The translations under genes and the position numbers were made by a program. From a virus, in IMG/VR virus record IMGVR_UViG_3300043409_000268, positions 1 to 22,978 of that record: DNA of 22,978 bases; one strand, 5' to 3'. Shown piece by piece: positions 1,007-9,443 of this stretch. Below the pieces are notes generated by a model that saw only the letters and a program-made list of their open reading frames with translations, made no database searches and was not told where the DNA came from. Positions within the stretch are counted from its first letter, which is position 1. Every line of letters begins with the position of its first letter.

Positions 1007-1680
1007 AATTGTTTTATTAGTTCGTTAAAATATTCTCTACATTGTTCTACTCTTAACTTAATTTGTTCTATCACCTCCTCATCTCTTTGTATTACAAAGG
1101 TCTTGACTCTTTTAGCATCAGGTATATGATTGAAGCTGTGCTGTTTTTGCACCTGGTCTCTAAGATCTAAACTCTCCTCCATTAGTCCTAACTTGTAGTG
1201 TGCACTCTTTACCTCCTGCTCAACTATGGCATGGGGTGTATTGGTTAGGCAGTAGCACAGTAGTGCCTCTTGTTTATTACATAAAAACATATACCCTTGC
1301 AGTTGGTAAAAATAGTCTTTGTTAGGGCATTCATCAGGTTTGTCAAACCAGGGGAAAGTAGATCCACTCCATGAATTTTTCACATCTAATAGCACCTGAT
1401 CAGTAACTACATCAGGAGTACCTGTTAGCCAATCATTACTAAAGTGCTCTTCATTCTTGAAGATAAAGCCCTTATCTATCTGCTCCATTACAAAGCTGAG
1501 GCACATATCCTCGCACTCATTGCCCTTATCAGTATACTTACTAGTGAACTCTTTACGTATACCATAAACGTGTGCCAGGGCTAAGCCTTGAATATACGTT
1601 TTAGTTGTTTGTGATAGTACCTCCCCTTTAGTTTTAGAAGAGGTCATTATCTTACCTATTGCTGAGCATCTAATCTTCAT
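1003..1680 (-). CDS. YqaJ-type viral exonuclease (PD-(D/E)XK)
   Basis: A 5'-3' exonuclease of the lambda Red-alpha/YqaJ type that resects dsDNA ends to make ssDNA for the annealing protein next door. Visible motifs in order: an N-terminal RCSAIGKIMT segment (residues 4-13) typical of YqaJ; the helix with KGNECED (E55/E57); the catalytic core GTPD (residues 87-90) followed by LLDVK (D99, K101); and the downstream YFYQLQGYM motif with Q126 and Y130, which caps the active site in this family. At 225 residues it has normal length. Its start ATG overlaps the stop of the ERF gene (1677-1680), an exonuclease/annealase pairing typical of phage recombination modules. All expected catalytic residues are present. 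Confidence 0.93.
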   Translation of the reverse strand: MKIRCSAIGKIMTSSKTKGEVLSQTTKTYIQGLALAHVYGIRKEFTSKYTDKGNECEDMCLSFVMEQIDKGFIFKNEEHFSNDWLTGTPDVVTDQVLLDVKNSWSGSTFPWFDKPDECPNKDYFYQLQGYMFLCNKQEALLCYCLTNTPHAIVEQEVKSAHYKLGLMEESLDLRDQVQKQHSFNHIPDAKRVKTFVIQRDEEVIEQIKLRVEQCREYFNELIKQL

Positions 1681-2228
1681 ATCATAGGTATTAAAAGCAG
1701 TGAATTAATCTGAGTATCATTCAAGTCAAAGCTCTCCTTTAATTTCTCTACAGTAAACTTACCATCAGCTATAGCCTTAACAGCCTCAGCAAATCTCTTA
1801 GCATCTATCTTAGGCTTAGCAGTTGTAGCTATGTGACCATCATCATCAGTTGCCTGAAGAGTGAGCAGAGCTTGGATGGTGTACCTACGAAAGTAGGAAA
1901 TTTGACTCCCCTGCTGCTGTGCATTGAGGGTTAAGTCCATAGCCATACAGCTAGAGATAGAAAAACCTGTGTAGATGCATACTATCTGAGTGCATACACT
2001 ACCACCATCTATAGGCTGTAATAAAAGTAGATCATGCTGTAATAAGATAGGCTCAACAGTCTCTAGGATACTATTGATATCTGCATAAGATTTCTTAAAG
2101 TGTGGGTTAGTAGCATTCTTATGTACTTTACCGATTAGTTGTTTTGCCTGGTGAAGGCGAACATAGAAGGGAGCAGGCTGCTGCTCAACCTCCTGAGGCT
2201 TTACAGCCTTAGTTGTTTTTGGTTCCAT
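1677..2228 (-). CDS. erf: ERF-family single-strand annealing protein
   Basis: An ssDNA-annealing recombinase of the P22 Erf superfamily; it pairs complementary ssDNA produced by the YqaJ exonuclease. Family features: residues 41-63 (NPHFKKSYADINSILETVEP, then helix) form the conserved ERF N-terminal segment, and residues 107-131 contain GSQISYFRRYTIQALLTL followed by ATDDDG, the characteristic ERF signature. The C-terminal 50 residues are helical and variable, as usual. It is 183 residues long. It has its own promoter box at 2251-2258, and its translation start carries the AAACTAACCAA leader element shared with two other early operons. Start chosen because it sits correctly behind that leader. 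Confidence 0.93.
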   Translation of the reverse strand: MEPKTTKAVKPQEVEQQPAPFYVRLHQAKQLIGKVHKNATNPHFKKSYADINSILETVEPILLQHDLLLLQPIDGGSVCTQIVCIYTGFSISSCMAMDLTLNAQQQGSQISYFRRYTIQALLTLQATDDDGHIATTAKPKIDAKRFAEAVKAIADGKFTVEKLKESFDLNDTQINSLLLIPMI

Positions 2229-3098: not shown

Positions 3099-3546
3099 AA
3101 GTTAGTTCTATTGTTGGTATTTGATATTGATTAATTTTTTCTATATCCTTATCATCTTTAGCATGTGTTACATTCACTTCTACTATGCACATTATCTCAC
3201 CATCACTATCTAAAAATAAACAATCAGGTCTCATAGAGTAATCAGGTATTTTTGCTTTAATATATCTAGCTGCCTCAGCTTCTAGTAATACTTTATCACA
3301 TATAATTGTTAAATTATCTACTTGCACTGTTTTTTTCTCTTTTAAGTATTTTTGACAGTCTTTGTGAAAAATTATATTTACATCAATATCCTCACCTCTT
3401 TTAGTTTTGTAGTGCTTTCTATACTTATCACCATGTGCTACTATTATCTCATACTCTTTATCTTCATACCTAAAATAATATGTATTACCCTTAACAGCAT
3501 CATCAATATGTATGCTATTACCATCTATATCCTCAGCGTATATCAT
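2818..3546 (-). CDS. CoiA-like PD-(D/E)XK nuclease
   Basis: The centre of this 242-residue protein has the pattern of competence-protein CoiA-like nucleases: a helix (VLLEAEAARYIKAKIPDYS), then RPDCLFLDSDGEI with D108, then CIVEVNVTHAKDDKDIEKI with E123 and the conserved T-H, then YQIPTIELTY, then TEWLYFREEE. The lysine of the usual E-x-K is replaced by asparagine (E123-V-N125), as is common in this subgroup. The N-terminal 65 residues are a beta-rich domain with DKYRKHYKTKRGED. The last 70 residues in this frame are less protein-like than the alternative frame on the same DNA, so the C-terminus may be shifted. Start overlaps the primase-helicase stop (ATGA). Likely role: processing phage or host DNA during replication. 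Confidence 0.72.
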   Translation of the reverse strand: MIYAEDIDGNSIHIDDAVKGNTYYFRYEDKEYEIIVAHGDKYRKHYKTKRGEDIDVNIIFHKDCQKYLKEKKTVQVDNLTIICDKVLLEAEAARYIKAKIPDYSMRPDCLFLDSDGEIMCIVEVNVTHAKDDKDIEKINQYQIPTIELTYGKQKDNYQQPIRTEWLYFREEESCEIEIRKRIRAGNISIQKASLSYNKTREYIRTFNARVRPSRTIEQLTEQIEFVTNRIRFIDACIQKTLV

Positions 3547-5867
3547 AACTTAGTTATCTTGAACCATCTACCTACTGCACTTCTACCCTTGTCGAAGTGA
3601 TACCCCTTAAACTTGCAGTACTCATTAACCATCTTAAGATACCTCTGAGCATTTAGATCATGCCACCCTCCTGTGTAAGTTTGGAAGTCTTGTATAGATA
3701 CATTGTTATAGTGCAGCGTGTCCATTGTAATGTTACCCTCTATTGCATAGTCGTAAAACTCTTTGTTAGTAGAAGAGATAAATCTTTTGTCATTAGCATT
3801 AATAGCTACTGATTTAACAAGGCCCATTGATAAGAATTTCTGCAGGTTGTTTATCATATAGTTATCAAAGATTAACCAATCTACTAAGGTCCAGCTGTCA
3901 AATAACAACCTACCATACTCATCTAGTGGGTTTCGCTGAGCATTAAAGTACTGATTAAACTCTATTTCGTGCCTTCTCCTGTCATGGCTACCACCTGCAC
4001 CACTTATCACATAGTTGGTAGTGATGACTATCTTAGGGCTCCTTTCAAATGGGATAAAGATCTCATCTTTATTTTTTCTGTTCACTGTAATCCCTTCTGA
4101 GATAAGTGAGAATAGCTGCTCAAAGTCAAAGTTCTTTTTAACATCATCAAAGGCTAAAATTTGACTATCTAAATTTACTCGCTGATAAACAAAATCAGAC
4201 TTTTGAGGGTTGAATGCTTTACCATCTATCTTTACTATATTTCTAATCTTACCAATAGCAGTTAGCACTAAGCTCTTACCACTTCCCCCATTAGGATTAT
4301 CATCTATTTCCTGATCATTAAAAATAATTGCTTTCTGATCTGTTTTATCTTTGTAGGTATGGAGTAAATAACCTAAGGTAGTCTCTAAGGCATTCACCCT
4401 CTGCTCATCATCTGCAGATACTTTGCTTACAAAGCTCTTAAAATCATTTTCAATAGTCTTAGTAGGTTTGTAATCTCTATCAATGATTTGCCTATCCCAA
4501 ATGTACCCATCTATATCAATGTAGGGCACAATATCTATCTTATCTTTTGTAATCTTAACTACTCCATTTCTGTAAGGTATGAAGCTCACATCTTTAGTAT
4601 CCTGCAGCATCATTAAACCGATAGGCTCTAGCATAGATAAGTGACCATCTGTAAAGAGGTAGGGTGATTTACTGCAGTAGTTCCAAACTTCCACTTGCTT
4701 CTGCTTCATAAGATAAGCTAAGACAAAATCTTTAACCTGGTCCACTGAGGATAGATTAACTTTATTTTCTATTACCCTAACAAATGTAGGTTTCTCTGAT
4801 CGTTCAGGATAATACTTATTAAAGCCATACTTGTATAAGAAGTCACGATACTTCATAGGATCTACAGATACCCCTTTCTTATCACTAAAAGTCCAGAATA
4901 CATCCTCACTATTAGCCACATCTTTTTTAACATCCTCTACCACATCAGGCTTAATATCTAATTGCTTTGATATATCACTAGGGGAGATGCCCTCTTTTAG
5001 TTTAGACTTTACTTTTATTATAGTTTCTTTATCCTCAAAGTACTTAGTGCCTTTATCACTTCTTTTGTAAGCAGATCCTACACAGGTATTAATTTCTATT
5101 TGTGTAAAGGTCTTATCACTGTACTGATGCAGGTATAGTTTAGCAGTATTTTCACTGATACCATACTCACAAAAGCAGGATGCTACCTTAAACACCCAAT
5201 TATTTCTACCATTACCAATATCACCATGATTAAACTTCATTATATTATCAATGATATTACTTTCATTAGTCATTGGTAGCACTGGCACCTTATCAAAAGA
5301 GCTATGCCCTTTCTCCTCCTCAATAAGATTAAACACCTCAGCATCTAAATTGATATAGGCTGTAGGATCATAAGACTCAAAGCACACCCTACTAACATTA
5401 CAGCTAGAAGTATCAAAGTAGTCACTATCTATGTACTCCTCAAAGGCCTTAAATCTTCTCTTATGTGTGAATTTGTCTGATGGTGGTATCTTAATCACGC
5501 ACTTTAAGCCTTTGCCTGATGGTGATACAAATATCATAAAGACATTGATACAGGCCATTAGCCGAACTTTCTCAGCTTCCATTACCTCATCACTAGGATA
5601 ATCATCAAAGTCTAAGATACAAAGCCCTGAGTGCTCAATAAGGCCATTATCATTCCTTTCATTAAACGTACCATTAAACATTATAGCTCTAAGGCTGTTT
5701 TTTAGGCTGCTGTAGGCAGGATTATCATCTTCCATAGCTCTAAGAGCAGTGATCTTATCAATAAGCTCAGGGTAGCCCTCTTTTATTCTATTGTAAACAT
5801 CTACTACGTCTTGAGTGTAGGGAGTTTCTTTAGAATTGAATAAGGACTTGAATACAGATATCTTCAT
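3543..5867 (-). CDS. Primase-polymerase / SF3 helicase replication protein (BT4734-like N-terminus)
   Basis: The main replication enzyme of the phage. The N-terminal ~200 residues match the BT4734/VirE-N type of archaeo-eukaryotic primase: LCILDFDD (catalytic acidic residues 86-89), SPSGKGLK (115-122) and SRVCFESYDP (159-168). A helical linker (about 200-330) resembles the primase C-terminal region. The C-terminal half is a superfamily 3 helicase: Walker A NPNGGSGKS (524-532), Walker B QILAFDDV (569-576), motif C KIVITTNY (612-619), and an arginine-rich SHDRRRHEIEF segment after it. At 774 residues it has normal length for the fusion. A promoter box and leader element precede it, and an iteron-rich region that may be the origin lies directly upstream. 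Confidence 0.93.
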   Translation of the reverse strand: MKISVFKSLFNSKETPYTQDVVDVYNRIKEGYPELIDKITALRAMEDDNPAYSSLKNSLRAIMFNGTFNERNDNGLIEHSGLCILDFDDYPSDEVMEAEKVRLMACINVFMIFVSPSGKGLKCVIKIPPSDKFTHKRRFKAFEEYIDSDYFDTSSCNVSRVCFESYDPTAYINLDAEVFNLIEEEKGHSSFDKVPVLPMTNESNIIDNIMKFNHGDIGNGRNNWVFKVASCFCEYGISENTAKLYLHQYSDKTFTQIEINTCVGSAYKRSDKGTKYFEDKETIIKVKSKLKEGISPSDISKQLDIKPDVVEDVKKDVANSEDVFWTFSDKKGVSVDPMKYRDFLYKYGFNKYYPERSEKPTFVRVIENKVNLSSVDQVKDFVLAYLMKQKQVEVWNYCSKSPYLFTDGHLSMLEPIGLMMLQDTKDVSFIPYRNGVVKITKDKIDIVPYIDIDGYIWDRQIIDRDYKPTKTIENDFKSFVSKVSADDEQRVNALETTLGYLLHTYKDKTDQKAIIFNDQEIDDNPNGGSGKSLVLTAIGKIRNIVKIDGKAFNPQKSDFVYQRVNLDSQILAFDDVKKNFDFEQLFSLISEGITVNRKNKDEIFIPFERSPKIVITTNYVISGAGGSHDRRRHEIEFNQYFNAQRNPLDEYGRLLFDSWTLVDWLIFDNYMINNLQKFLSMGLVKSVAINANDKRFISSTNKEFYDYAIEGNITMDTLHYNNVSIQDFQTYTGGWHDLNAQRYLKMVNEYCKFKGYHFDKGRSAVGRWFKITKL

Positions 5868-5914
5868 GGTTAGTTAGTTGGGGTGTAAATATAATCATTA
5901 ATTCTATATGACAA
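5867..5914 (-). promoter_or_regulatory. Promoter-like box and leader element before the primase-helicase
   Basis: On the minus strand TATATTTA lies at 5886-5893, one base off the TAnnTTTG box. TTG at 5912-5914 stands 18 nt upstream as a possible -33 element, and it is part of an iteron-like TTGTCAT. The leader ends AACTAACCATG. AACTAACCA (5867-5875) is the same element as in the other two early leaders, here with 9 nt of complementarity to the terminator loop at 8504-8521. Confidence 0.55.
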
Positions 5915-6089
5915 CACTATGACGCAAAATGACGCAAATTTTAAGCCCTTGTCATAGCTAATAAGTATACTGCTATTGACTATTAGAGCTTTATGACGCA
6001 AATGACGCAAAATAAAATAAAAAAAATTATTTAGAAAATGCAAAAAGTTACAGCAGACGCTAATAAGAGAAGTTGTCATAGCGTCATTA
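5908..6089. other. Iteron cluster with AT-rich tract: candidate replication origin or operator
   Basis: This gene-free stretch carries at least eight copies of the core ATGAC(G/A). Direct copies: ATGACAAC at 5908; two perfect tandem ATGACGCAAA units at 5919-5928 and 5929-5938; a second pair at 5993-6001 and 6002-6012. Inverted copies: TTGTCAT at 5950 and 6073, and GCGTCAT at 6081-6087. Between the second pair and the last inverted copies lies a very A/T-rich segment (6011-6050) suitable as an unwinding element. The region sits between a DnaA-domain-IV-like gene and the primase-helicase gene. Iterons next to replication genes are classical for origins; binding of an autoregulator to the primase promoter is the alternative. 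Confidence 0.65.
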
Positions 6090-6090
6090 G

Positions 6091-6453
6091 TTAGTAGTAA
6101 TTGCATCTGATCTGCTCTTTAAGTTTCTCTAATTTCTCAAGGCTAACACATTCTAACACCCTCTGCTTTAATGGTTTGTAGTATTGAGGTAGCACAAACT
6201 TCTCCCTTAATTCTAAGGTATGCATCATATAAGCACTGTCTTTGTACTTTGAGTAAGTGTCATGCTTAGCTATCCCATTTATGACAGTTGCGTGAGTTTG
6301 TTCAAACAGCCTACCAATCTGTGATAGTGTCATACCATCCCTTTTGAGTACTTTGTACAGGTAATACCTCTTGTAAAGTACATGCATATACCTGCTTTTT
6401 TGTTTTAGATCGTGCTTATCTATGATAGCCTGTACCTCTTCTAGTCTGGTCAT
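6091..6453 (-). CDS. Small protein with DnaA domain-IV-like helix-turn-helix; candidate origin-binding protein
   Basis: Residues 41-60 read MTLSQIGRLFEQTHATVING. This resembles the DnaA C-terminal DNA-binding signature (L-P-E-I-G-R-x-F-G-x-x-H-x-T-V), including the IGR-x-F helix and the H-x-T-V recognition helix. It is preceded by a basic helix (RYYLYKVLKRDG) as in DnaA domain IV. There is no ATPase domain; the rest of the 120 residues is helical and charged. The gene lies immediately upstream of the iteron cluster and the primase-helicase, so binding to the iterons as initiator or regulator is the obvious hypothesis. Its ATG overlaps the stop of the preceding gene. Identification rests on motif resemblance only. 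Confidence 0.72.
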   Translation of the reverse strand: MTRLEEVQAIIDKHDLKQKSRYMHVLYKRYYLYKVLKRDGMTLSQIGRLFEQTHATVINGIAKHDTYSKYKDSAYMMHTLELREKFVLPQYYKPLKQRVLECVSLEKLEKLKEQIRCNYY

Positions 6454-6692
6454 GATAATAGTTTAGGGTTTACACTCTTAAAGAGCTCACTTTGACTGTC
6501 TACCAATCCCACTGCATTGATATAATCTATCTCTACCTTTGCACTGGCTATGATAGTAGCACTCAGCTGAGCTATTGCTTTTGCCTTTTCTACTTCCTGC
6601 TGTACTTTCTCATTACTCATGTCCTCATCAGCTAATCTTTCAAGTGCCATAAAGATGTGATCACGTAGATCACTTAGTTTGTTGTTTGCCAT
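6450..6692 (-). CDS. Small helical phage protein, function unknown (80 aa)
   Basis: Reads MANNKLSDLRDHIFMALERL, then an acidic turn (ADEDMSNEKVQQEVEKAK) and a long helix (AIAQLSATIIASAKVEIDYI). Small proteins of this kind, with KLSDLRDHIFxALERL at the N-terminus, are common in phage early regions and are often found with HNH genes and small DNA-binding proteins. I know of no demonstrated function. The stop overlaps the start of the DnaA-like gene (ATGA), and the start overlaps the HNH gene's 3' end by 23 nt. Probably an oligomeric helical protein. Confidence 0.7.
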   Translation of the reverse strand: MANNKLSDLRDHIFMALERLADEDMSNEKVQQEVEKAKAIAQLSATIIASAKVEIDYINAVGLVDSQSELFKSVNPKLLS

Positions 6693-8095: not shown

Positions 8096-8172
8096 AGTGC
8101 ACAGGATATGTACATTCCTACTAAAAATAGTGTTAAGGCAGCTAAGCCTTGGATAAAATCAATAGTTCTCAT
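8092..8172 (-). CDS. 26-residue membrane peptide
   Basis: Reads MRTIDFIQGLAALTLFLVGM and then YISCAL. It has a short charged N-terminus followed by one hydrophobic helix. Its ATG lies 14 nt inside the 3' end of the 58-aa gene, and its TGA overlaps the ATG of the 83-aa gene (8092-8095), so it bridges the gap between them exactly. Together with the 31-aa peptide at 735-830 it is one of two tiny membrane proteins embedded in the early operons. No function can be assigned. Confidence 0.5.
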   Translation of the reverse strand: MRTIDFIQGLAALTLFLVGMYISCAL

Positions 8173-8335
8173 CTAGTCCTAGTTTTTCGATTAATACTAA
8201 TAGAGTTACATACTTTGTTTGTAGTCTCTGAGCTGCAGGATCTGTGTGTCCGAATGCTTTTACCATTTCATTGTACTCATCTCTCAACTCTATTGAATAG
8301 AGGAGGATAGTAGCTTTCATTTGTTCTGTTGTCAT
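8159..8335 (-). CDS. First gene of the early operon, small helical protein (58 aa)
   Basis: Reads MTTEQMKATILLYSIELRDE, then YNEMVKAFGHTDPAAQRLQT and a hydrophobic-charged helix (VTLLVLIEKLGLDENY). Not recognised; a small two- or three-helix protein. It is the first gene after the promoter at 8359-8366, and its start codon is preceded by the AAACTAACCAA leader element. It is therefore probably the first early protein translated from this operon and a direct target if the proposed antisense RNA acts. The start is fixed by the leader. Confidence 0.72.
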   Translation of the reverse strand: MTTEQMKATILLYSIELRDEYNEMVKAFGHTDPAAQRLQTKYVTLLVLIEKLGLDENY

Positions 8336-8391
8336 TGGTTAGTTTTAATTGGTTTAGACAAATATACGTACTTACAATGAATTGTATACAA
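8335..8391 (-). promoter_or_regulatory. Early promoter with palindromic operator-like sequence and leader element
   Basis: On the minus strand TATATTTG at 8359-8366 matches the Bacteroidota -7 box; the leader runs to the ATG at 8335 and ends AAACTAACCAATG. Upstream of the box, where a -33 region would lie, are overlapping inverted repeats: ACAAT-GA-ATTGT (8374-8385) and the perfect palindrome TTGTATACAA (8382-8391). These suggest a repressor site. A TTG stands 22 nt upstream of the -7 box. The rest of the gap up to 8485 shows only AT-rich sequence with tiny unsupported frames. Confidence 0.6.
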
Positions 8392-8485: not shown

Positions 8486-8552
8486 GCAAAAAATAACCCC
8501 CTACCAAACTAACCAAAGATATAGGGGGCTATGAGTCTCTAATACGAGACCT
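8486..8552 (-). ncRNA. Candidate small antisense RNA (about 65 nt) targeting early-operon leaders
   Basis: Starting a few bases after the TATATTTG box at 8557-8564, the minus strand would give a 5' hairpin (GTCTC/GAGAC at 8546-8550 and 8535-8539, loop GTATTA). A second, stronger hairpin follows, with stem CCCCCTA/TAGGGGG and an 18-nt loop UAUCUUUGGUUAGUUUGG, ending in TTATTTTTT. The loop part UUGGUUAGUUU is an exact 11-nt complement of AAACUAACCAA, the leader sequence that ends on the A of AUG in the operons starting at 8335 and 2228. It pairs over 9 nt with the primase-helicase leader at 5867-5875. An exposed loop on a stable stem is the usual arrangement for an RNA that pairs in trans. It could also be released from the 3' end of the late mRNA. 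Transcription and function are inferred. Confidence 0.6.
8488..8528 (-). terminator. Intrinsic terminator of the late operon
   Basis: Minus-strand stem CCCCCTA (8522-8528) with TAGGGGG (8497-8503), an 18-nt loop, and then TTATTTTTT (8488-8496). It lies about 45 nt after the stop of the metallophosphoesterase gene and before the early promoter, so it separates late from early transcription. The loop is unusually long for a terminator and carries the antisense sequence described for the ncRNA. Confidence 0.85.
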
Positions 8553-8556
8553 GGTG

Positions 8557-8573: not shown

Positions 8574-9443
8574 TTACATATTAAACTTATGACTATCAAT
8601 ATATTTTGTCACTAATCTATCACCTGTAGTGGCCCTCAATAATTTTATGGTTAATATCCTACCTCCTAATGGCTTAATGGGAGCTCCACGTTCAACGTGC
8701 CACCCTTGCGAACCATCACCGTACTCTTCTTTATAGGTACCTGTAAGCATTAGGTGTAACTGCTTTTGCTTAAGTACATAACCTCCTACACTATGATGCT
8801 CTATAGTATCCCTCACATCATTTCTACAGCTGTTCTCATGTATGTGGCCCATTGTGAACACATCAAAGTTCTCATAAGTCTCTAATGCCCTGGTTAAATT
8901 AATAGCTCCCTTAGTAACTATACCACCACCACCTGAGCCATGGAAGTACTTTACCTTAGTTGAGTATTTAGATCCCCATCCTGAATTTTGCTTAACTACT
9001 AACCACCCACCATAGCCACCTGTCTGAATGTTAGATCCTGCTTTATAGTTGAGTAGGTCCACAAATCTTTGGAGTATATCAGTTTCTTGAAATTTAATTA
9101 TAGCAGTTTCGTGGTTGCCATAACCTATTAGCTTAATGATGTGAGCATAGGGGAGAAACCAATCTACAGCAGTCTCAACTATACTATCTAAGTACTTTGC
9201 GTTATTGTGCTCAGGTCTAATGTCTGACTTGTTACGCCTGTTATCTCCTCTACCTTGCATAAGACAAAACATATCACCGTTAATCATCACAGGTATATCC
9301 TCTTCTAAGCAATAGTCTAGGTGCCTCTTTAGCATATCTCTATCACAGTGAGGGTTATCCCAGTGTAGATCAGATAGCATAGCAATACGTGCATGTAGAT
9401 TATCAATGATAAGCTCATGCACATTCTTAGAATGTTTAATCAT
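8574..9443 (-). CDS. Calcineurin-like metallophosphoesterase
   Basis: A dinuclear metal phosphoesterase with all core motifs: SDLHWDN (D25, H27), MINGDMF (N55-G-D57), YGNHET (N110, H111), YFHGSG (H168) and TMGHIHEN (G-H200-x-H202). Its 289-residue length is ordinary for a single-domain enzyme. The motif pattern fits a phosphodiesterase/exonuclease-like fold, but the substrate (DNA, RNA or a nucleotide signal) cannot be read from it. It is the last gene of the late transcription unit, coupled by ATGA overlap to the spanin-like gene, so it is probably made late together with lysis proteins. Phages often place such enzymes near DNA genes; the position after the lysis genes is less usual. Confidence 0.88.
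   Translation of the reverse strand: MIKHSKNVHELIIDNLHARIAMLSDLHWDNPHCDRDMLKRHLDYCLEEDIPVMINGDMFCLMQGRGDNRRNKSDIRPEHNNAKYLDSIVETAVDWFLPYAHIIKLIGYGNHETAIIKFQETDILQRFVDLLNYKAGSNIQTGGYGGWLVVKQNSGWGSKYSTKVKYFHGSGGGGIVTKGAINLTRALETYENFDVFTMGHIHENSCRNDVRDTIEHHSVGGYVLKQKQLHLMLTGTYKEEYGDGSQGWHVERGAPIKPLGGRILTIKLLRATTGDRLVTKYIDSHKFNM

Follow-up and report, generated by a model that had tools for sequence, protein, structure and literature searches.

A short putative phage RNA, predicted to be antisense to the start regions of three early operons, with a seed that changes together with its target leaders

We found that a virus genome segment (IMG/VR record IMGVR_UViG_3300043409_000268, positions 1 to 22,978; this whole stretch of 22,978 nt is here called the window) carries on its minus strand a short putative RNA gene that, in our judgement, is likely to encode a trans-acting antisense RNA blocking translation initiation of early replication and recombination operons. 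Sequence comparison with related phages established the structure of this unit together with its promoter-type box, the antisense match to the early leaders and the joint change of seed and leaders.

The candidate RNA is located directly 3' of a metallophosphatase gene (8574–9443, minus strand), the 3' end of which is the site of the small RNA both here and in related phages. Just beyond the stop codon of that gene there is a predicted promoter −7 box, TATATTTG (8564–8557, minus strand), which fits the TAnnTTTG −7 consensus of Bacteroidota promoters (PMC7366714); a −33 element could not be clearly made out for this promoter. The box is followed by a predicted RNA of about 65–75 nt (8556–8482, minus strand, with approximate ends) composed of two hairpins. 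The first is a 5' hairpin with the predicted fold GGUCUC-GUAUUA-GAGACU (8551–8534, minus strand), which recurs in relatives, and the second is an intrinsic terminator hairpin (8528–8497, minus strand) having a GC-rich stem of 7–8 pairs, of which seven are formed by CCCCCTA (8528–8522) and TAGGGGG (8503–8497), with TTATTTTTT lying directly 3' of the loop and stem and a U-rich tail at 8496–8488. This stem encloses an 18-nt loop, UAUCUUUGGUUAGUUUGG (8521–8504, minus strand), identified as the antisense seed by sequence matching and duplex energies. Folding of the small RNA unit in the window gave a minimum free energy of −27 kcal/mol with a z-score of −3.46, and no Rfam family matched at gathering score in the window or in eight relatives from other groups. 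An earlier note on this DNA had described the terminator and its loop as the end of a late operon but had missed the promoter box and the 5' hairpin; with these included, positions 8556–8482 look like a compact RNA gene of about 70 nt, beyond a mere operon end. From the promoter type and the relatives of the primase, the host of the virus is probably a member of the Bacteroidota.

Re-reading of the sequence confirmed the loop, the stem and the complementarity of the loop to three early leaders, with runs of 11, 11 and 9 nt, at the positions originally given. The first predicted target is AAACTAACCAA at 8345–8335 (minus strand), the last nucleotide of which is the A in the ATG start codon of an early gene, GENE1 (8159–8335, minus strand), encoding a 58-aa protein for which no known function was found and whose family is kept in other phage groups. 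The second is AACTAACCA, 9 nt at 5875–5867 (minus strand) in front of a primase-helicase gene (BT4734-like N-terminal and PriCT-1 domains; 3543–5867, minus strand, start ATG at 5867), supported by sequence and by duplex prediction, in which the pairing is predicted to extend beyond the ATG through AAGATA with UAUCUU. The third is again AAACTAACCAA, at 2238–2228 (minus strand), where its final A likewise begins the ATG start codon, here of a gene for an ERF-family single-stranded-DNA-annealing protein (1677–2228, minus strand), which is followed by an exonuclease gene (1003–1680). The leaders of the 58-aa gene and of ERF each have the box TATATTTG upstream, of the same kind as the small-RNA box, and the primase box reads TATATTTA. 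That all three operons serve replication or recombination, as the earlier note had stated, is thus shown for primase and ERF, the 58-aa gene having no known function.

The match was rare as well as exact. The 11-mer AAACTAACCAA was absent from the rest of the window when both strands were searched, and the second-best run against the three leaders was at most 8 in all 22,841 other 18-nt minus-strand windows. Predicted duplexes between the loop and the leaders had energies of −15.0, −16.5 and −15.4 kcal/mol and were the three strongest among 30 minus-strand gene starts, albeit with a small margin between −15.0 and the next-best gene start at −13.9 kcal/mol. The leaders themselves were nearly devoid of predicted structure. 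RNA and targets lie on the same strand at separate sites, 0.2, 2.7 and 6.3 kb apart, and the RNA is hence encoded apart from its targets and has short complementarity, of 9–11 nt, to their start regions.

Further features were seen upstream of the primase leader. About four TTTGCGTCAT repeats at 5920–6050 resemble iterons and may mark a replication origin or a regulator site, and a nearby gene (6091–6453) encodes a protein of 120 aa, possibly an origin-binding protein near these repeats, whose match to the C-terminal helix-turn-helix of DnaA is weak and below cutoff. An 80-aa protein (6450–6692) matched phrog_2044, labelled 'RNA polymerase beta subunit', a label that seems doubtful for a protein of this size.

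Relatives were collected from IMG/VR by scanning with the metallophosphatase and the primase. Of 179 loci with a metallophosphatase 3' end, among them those of the closest relatives of the window (here called class A), 147 had a terminator directly after the gene. In class A, 93 loci gave 31 distinct transcripts, which retained the box, both hairpins and the core of the loop. The 5' hairpin was built from at least five unrelated sequences, with a hairpin nevertheless predicted in every distinct transcript, and it was better than shuffled sequences (p<0.05) in 9 of the 11 sequence types tested and weak in two. In 18 distinct relatives, all stem positions of the terminator were paired (100%), and at two pairs both partners varied (G-C/A-U and C-G/G-U); the covariation score of the stem was reached by none of 500 shuffles. 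The loop core CUUUGGUUAGUUU was invariant in the aligned relatives and its flanks were variable.

The element was present at the leaders of the 58-aa gene, primase and ERF in the class-A contigs. The window and 56 distinct class-A loci, 539 kb in all, contained 125 exact copies of AAACTAACCAA, of which 57 lay in the small RNA, 65 were assigned to leaders by rule and three were classed as 'other'. Of these three, two belonged to leaders truncated by the end of a contig and one was a tandem duplicate at a leader; no copy in this set was thus found outside the early leaders or the small RNA. Some class-A ERF leaders instead read AACTAACCCAATG or AACTAACCC although the loop was unchanged. We also noted that one relative (L096, 3476) has an additional 95-aa gene with a AAACTAACCAA leader between the RNA and the 58-aa gene, that another (L198) has the element doubled in one leader, and that the gap between the RNA and the 58-aa gene in L004–L043 is of very variable length, being a mosaic of recurring modules such as GGTTATAGC(C/T)AACATA... 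and AAGGTTAT..CCTTA in combinations that differ among relatives.

The earlier note had proposed that late transcription would automatically produce the inhibitor, the loop being solely the 3' end of a late operon mRNA that thereby acts as an early-to-late switch. The hairpin does lie 3' of a lysis and structural operon on the same strand, read-through from upstream would yield an identical 3' end, and in some groups the boxes deviate from the consensus. However, all 31 distinct class-A transcripts have a box immediately where the predicted RNA begins (30 TAnnTTTG and one TAnnTTTA), reading TAAGTTTG, TATATTTG or TAATTTTG and once TAATTTTA, and the box region occurs in two alternative sequence forms having the same end point. 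A separate 5' hairpin is also retained, and in the groups of L157 and L209 similar RNAs are located away from the metallophosphatase gene. Because of the TAnnTTTG-type box at its 5' end, of the same kind as those of the early leaders, the small RNA is most likely a gene of its own with its own predicted promoter, and the view that it derives from late transcription alone appears unlikely.

We then considered more distant groups. At loci with 70–80% identical metallophosphatases, the short RNA after the gene carries another seed. In group A2 (L129) the loop is TTAGTGGTTTGG and the leaders are AACAAACCACAATG and TACAAACCAATG, with the A2 primase leader lacking such a match. Group B has the seed CATAGCGTTTTTAATTA with leaders ending in AATTAAAAACGCTATG, and variants thereof, at several operons, and group C has the seed TTCATAATACGTTGTTTTG with the leaders AAAACAATTTATTATGAA (58-aa-gene family, of which several leaders deviate) and CAAAACAACATTTTATGAA (primase). 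The corresponding pairs are TCATTAGCGTGTGTAATT with leaders ending in ACACGCTATG or reading AACACACACGC in group D, and TTCATAATTGTTTTGA with AAAACAACTATGA in group E. Boxes in groups C–E were off consensus (TAACTTAG and others). Presentation of the seed by a terminator loop, as first described, is only one of the arrangements: in groups B–E the seed precedes the terminator and contains the complement of the ATG, which makes the class-A loop one form of a broader type of anti-start RNA.

Independent change of loop and leaders in related phages had been named beforehand as evidence against the idea; they were instead found to change jointly. When seeds were swapped among six groups, the true assignment ranked 1 of 720 with all leaders, and with leaders of homologous genes alone it was likewise 1 of 720 overall (GENE1 1 of 720, PRIM 2 of 120, ERF 1 of 24), ranks that are strong but not pristine because the groups were defined by hand from the RNA sequence and the local-alignment score used was adopted after the result of a first score had been seen. 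With that first score, the longest exact run, the true assignment was not first in its group permutation, the score being blurred by the mismatches or bulges in the pairing of groups C–E. About 6–10 sequence groups can be regarded as independent, and groups G–K were found by searching for matches. A natural swap was also seen, in that the class-A contigs L032, L042 and L198 carry an ERF type otherwise typical of class B (67% identical protein). The leader of this ERF type is AAAACTAACCAATG in class A, fitting the RNA found there, and ends in ACGCTATG in class B, with scores for the A and B seeds of 23 versus 14–20 in class A and 6–9 versus 16–22 in class B. In L021, whose metallophosphatase is 86% identical, RNA and ATG-proximal element are both missing, with ACTAACCAA persisting about 20 nt upstream of its ERF start. 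Together, the rarity of the match and this co-change strongly support the notion of one RNA antisense to three early leaders.

Units elsewhere were sought with a box-plus-terminator filter, as an unrestricted scan for 9-nt complements gave many AT-rich chance matches. When this filter was applied blind to position in 12 dissimilar clusters, two of them of class-A type, the best pair-scores averaged 36.0, compared with 30.3 ± 1.2 with leaders swapped, and none of 200 leader exchanges reached 36.0. L157/L152, L209, L047, L153–L155 and L066/L049 are new candidates which, having been found through a search for matches, should be taken as leads. L157 (9714) and L152 have a box–seed–terminator arrangement with the putative RNA CATAATTTTTTAAGG facing the leaders CCTTAAAATTATG and ACAAAAATTATG, directly upstream of primase. 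A first k-mer scan of distant loci had picked L155 and a site in L066 (3872), the latter of which was rejected because it is the terminator of a structural gene and has no genuine partners among the leaders. The L145/L150 clade has four copies of AAACTAAACAA, at least two of them in leaders, but gave no exact antisense, with GTTTAGTTTGGTTAATTTAA 5' of a terminator as a weak candidate; searches of group F (L045) and of L083 gave no convincing seed–leader match. A stem-anchored scan designed to detect different loops recovered nothing beyond the known loop core and a few unrelated terminators. No close cultured relative was found, with identities of at most 34% for the metallophosphatase and 39% for the primase. 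Nonlabens phage P12024S (L266, 9277–16021 of that phage) resembles the window in its order of endolysin, holin, metallophosphatase, ERF, exonuclease, SSB and primase, but no small RNA was found in its 170-nt gap after the metallophosphatase. The leaders listed from three further phage records were uninformative.

The lineage specificity of the seeds could also be read as an immunity code directed against superinfecting relatives, like the heteroimmunity of c4 in P1 and P7, and not as timing within a single infection. Seed and leader pairs match within a lineage only, as immunity specificities do, but one seed is common to many class-A genomes, and no lysogen was found, with three MAG contigs as the only matches among 84,980 species genomes. 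We hold such a role to be distinctly unlikely.

For the antisense RNA favoured here, the following mechanism can be proposed. The host-type promoter TATATTTG would probably drive an RNA of about 70 nt comprising the 5' hairpin and the terminator hairpin, with the latter exposing its open 18-nt loop. This loop would pair just upstream of the start codons of the first genes of three operons (58-aa gene, primase and ERF), with the pairing predicted to span the start codon in the case of primase. Bacteroidota naturally lack Shine–Dalgarno sequences, with mRNA structure and nearby bases tuning initiation (PMC6847099), and in a host without Shine–Dalgarno pairing the paired region would be where the ribosome must bind. 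A duplex formed there, beside the AUG or across it, would then keep the 30S subunit from binding, and the replication and recombination operons would be repressed together. As the RNA gene would be copied along with the phage genome, repression should rise with genome number and act as a delayed brake that reduces early genes after sufficient DNA synthesis, to which late-operon read-through may contribute RNA. Expression, repression as opposed to activation, and this logic of dosage and timing are what we infer; a dosage-linked brake is favoured over a late-operon switch because the RNA promoter resembles the early ones.

Computation gives the pairing and not its sign, and since some small RNAs activate translation, the pairing might conceivably activate or protect the early mRNAs, or the leaders might act as a sponge for the RNA. 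This we find improbable, as hardly any structure that could be opened is predicted in the leaders, the seeds of groups B–E overlie the AUG itself, and start-region pairing is repressive in known cases, namely in GibS of Bacteroides, where an open seed pairs with start-codon regions (PMC7366714), and in sar and c4 (PMC12197685). Repression is thus suggested by the nearly unfolded leaders and by a start-region duplex that would exclude the 30S subunit, as in these three systems.

Finally, we consider it very improbable that the shared leader works as a DNA or protein site, or else enhances translation, with the loop as a chance copy or decoy. The leaders are A-rich, resembling the Kozak-like signals of the host (PMC6847099), and the L145/L150 clade has similar leaders with no convincing RNA. 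Against this stand the co-change of seed and leaders across groups, the restriction of copies to leaders and RNA, the complement of ATG within the seeds of groups B–E, and the joint absence of RNA and ATG-proximal element in L021. That the leader is a mere Kozak-like host signal was rejected on account of the group-specific matching.

The copy-number RNAs of plasmids, RNA I of ColE1 and CopA of R1, are stem-loops that initiate pairing through their loops and exert gene-dosage feedback on replication functions, and they are encoded opposite their target. The antisense RNA proposed here is like them in its predicted stem-loop and loop-initiated pairing and in the dosage feedback suggested for it, but its targets are several separate operons, with RNA and targets located on one strand at separate places. 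GibS and other trans-encoded small RNAs of Bacteroides are similar in being short intergenic RNAs in hosts without obvious Hfq, and GibS also in having an open seed that pairs around the start codons of at least two mRNAs (PMC7366714). GibS is, however, a host RNA with metabolic targets, whereas the RNA studied here is phage-encoded, matches the genes that head the early operons of that same phage and, in class A, carries its seed in the terminator loop. The sar RNA of P22 (68/69 nt, similar in size) and c4 of P1/P7, which has its complementary sequence in loops, are phage RNAs acting at the ribosome binding region of a phage mRNA, each with the antirepressor gene ant of a temperate phage as its single target (PMC12197685); in the present case at least three operons are matched, two of them encoding replication or recombination proteins. 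OOP of lambda is a short promoter-to-terminator phage antisense RNA of 77 nt, comparable to the unit predicted here, but cis-acting on the single target cII (PMC12197685), whereas the present RNA would come from a locus separate from its targets and the seeds are of 9–16 nt. In place of the single target of sar, c4 and OOP, three leaders were matched here, none of them opposite the RNA. A phage small-RNA review from 2025 lists the single-target antisense RNAs sar, c4, OOP and aQ together with host-directed ones (PMC12197685), and in the literature covered, mostly papers available without subscription, no report turned up of a phage RNA directed at several early operons.

By analogy, the RNA would work like a phage-borne GibS or sar, yet it falls outside those families. 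With about even confidence we further suggest that it belongs to an undescribed, large class of phage riboregulators, in which each lineage of these uncultured phages has one short RNA with a private seed matching a 'password' common to its early replication leaders, incoming genes adopt that password, seed and password drift together, and the resulting RNA code sets the stop of early genes and possibly which phages cross-regulate each other. Accounts of timing in phages usually invoke repressors, sigma factors or RNA polymerases; one RNA of about 70 nt matched to several early operons, with seed and leaders changing jointly, would be a means of coordination without protein, in bacteria to which Shine–Dalgarno logic does not apply. 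The seed and leader pairs provide testable predictions, natural compensatory variants and a handle for finding such RNAs in metagenomes.
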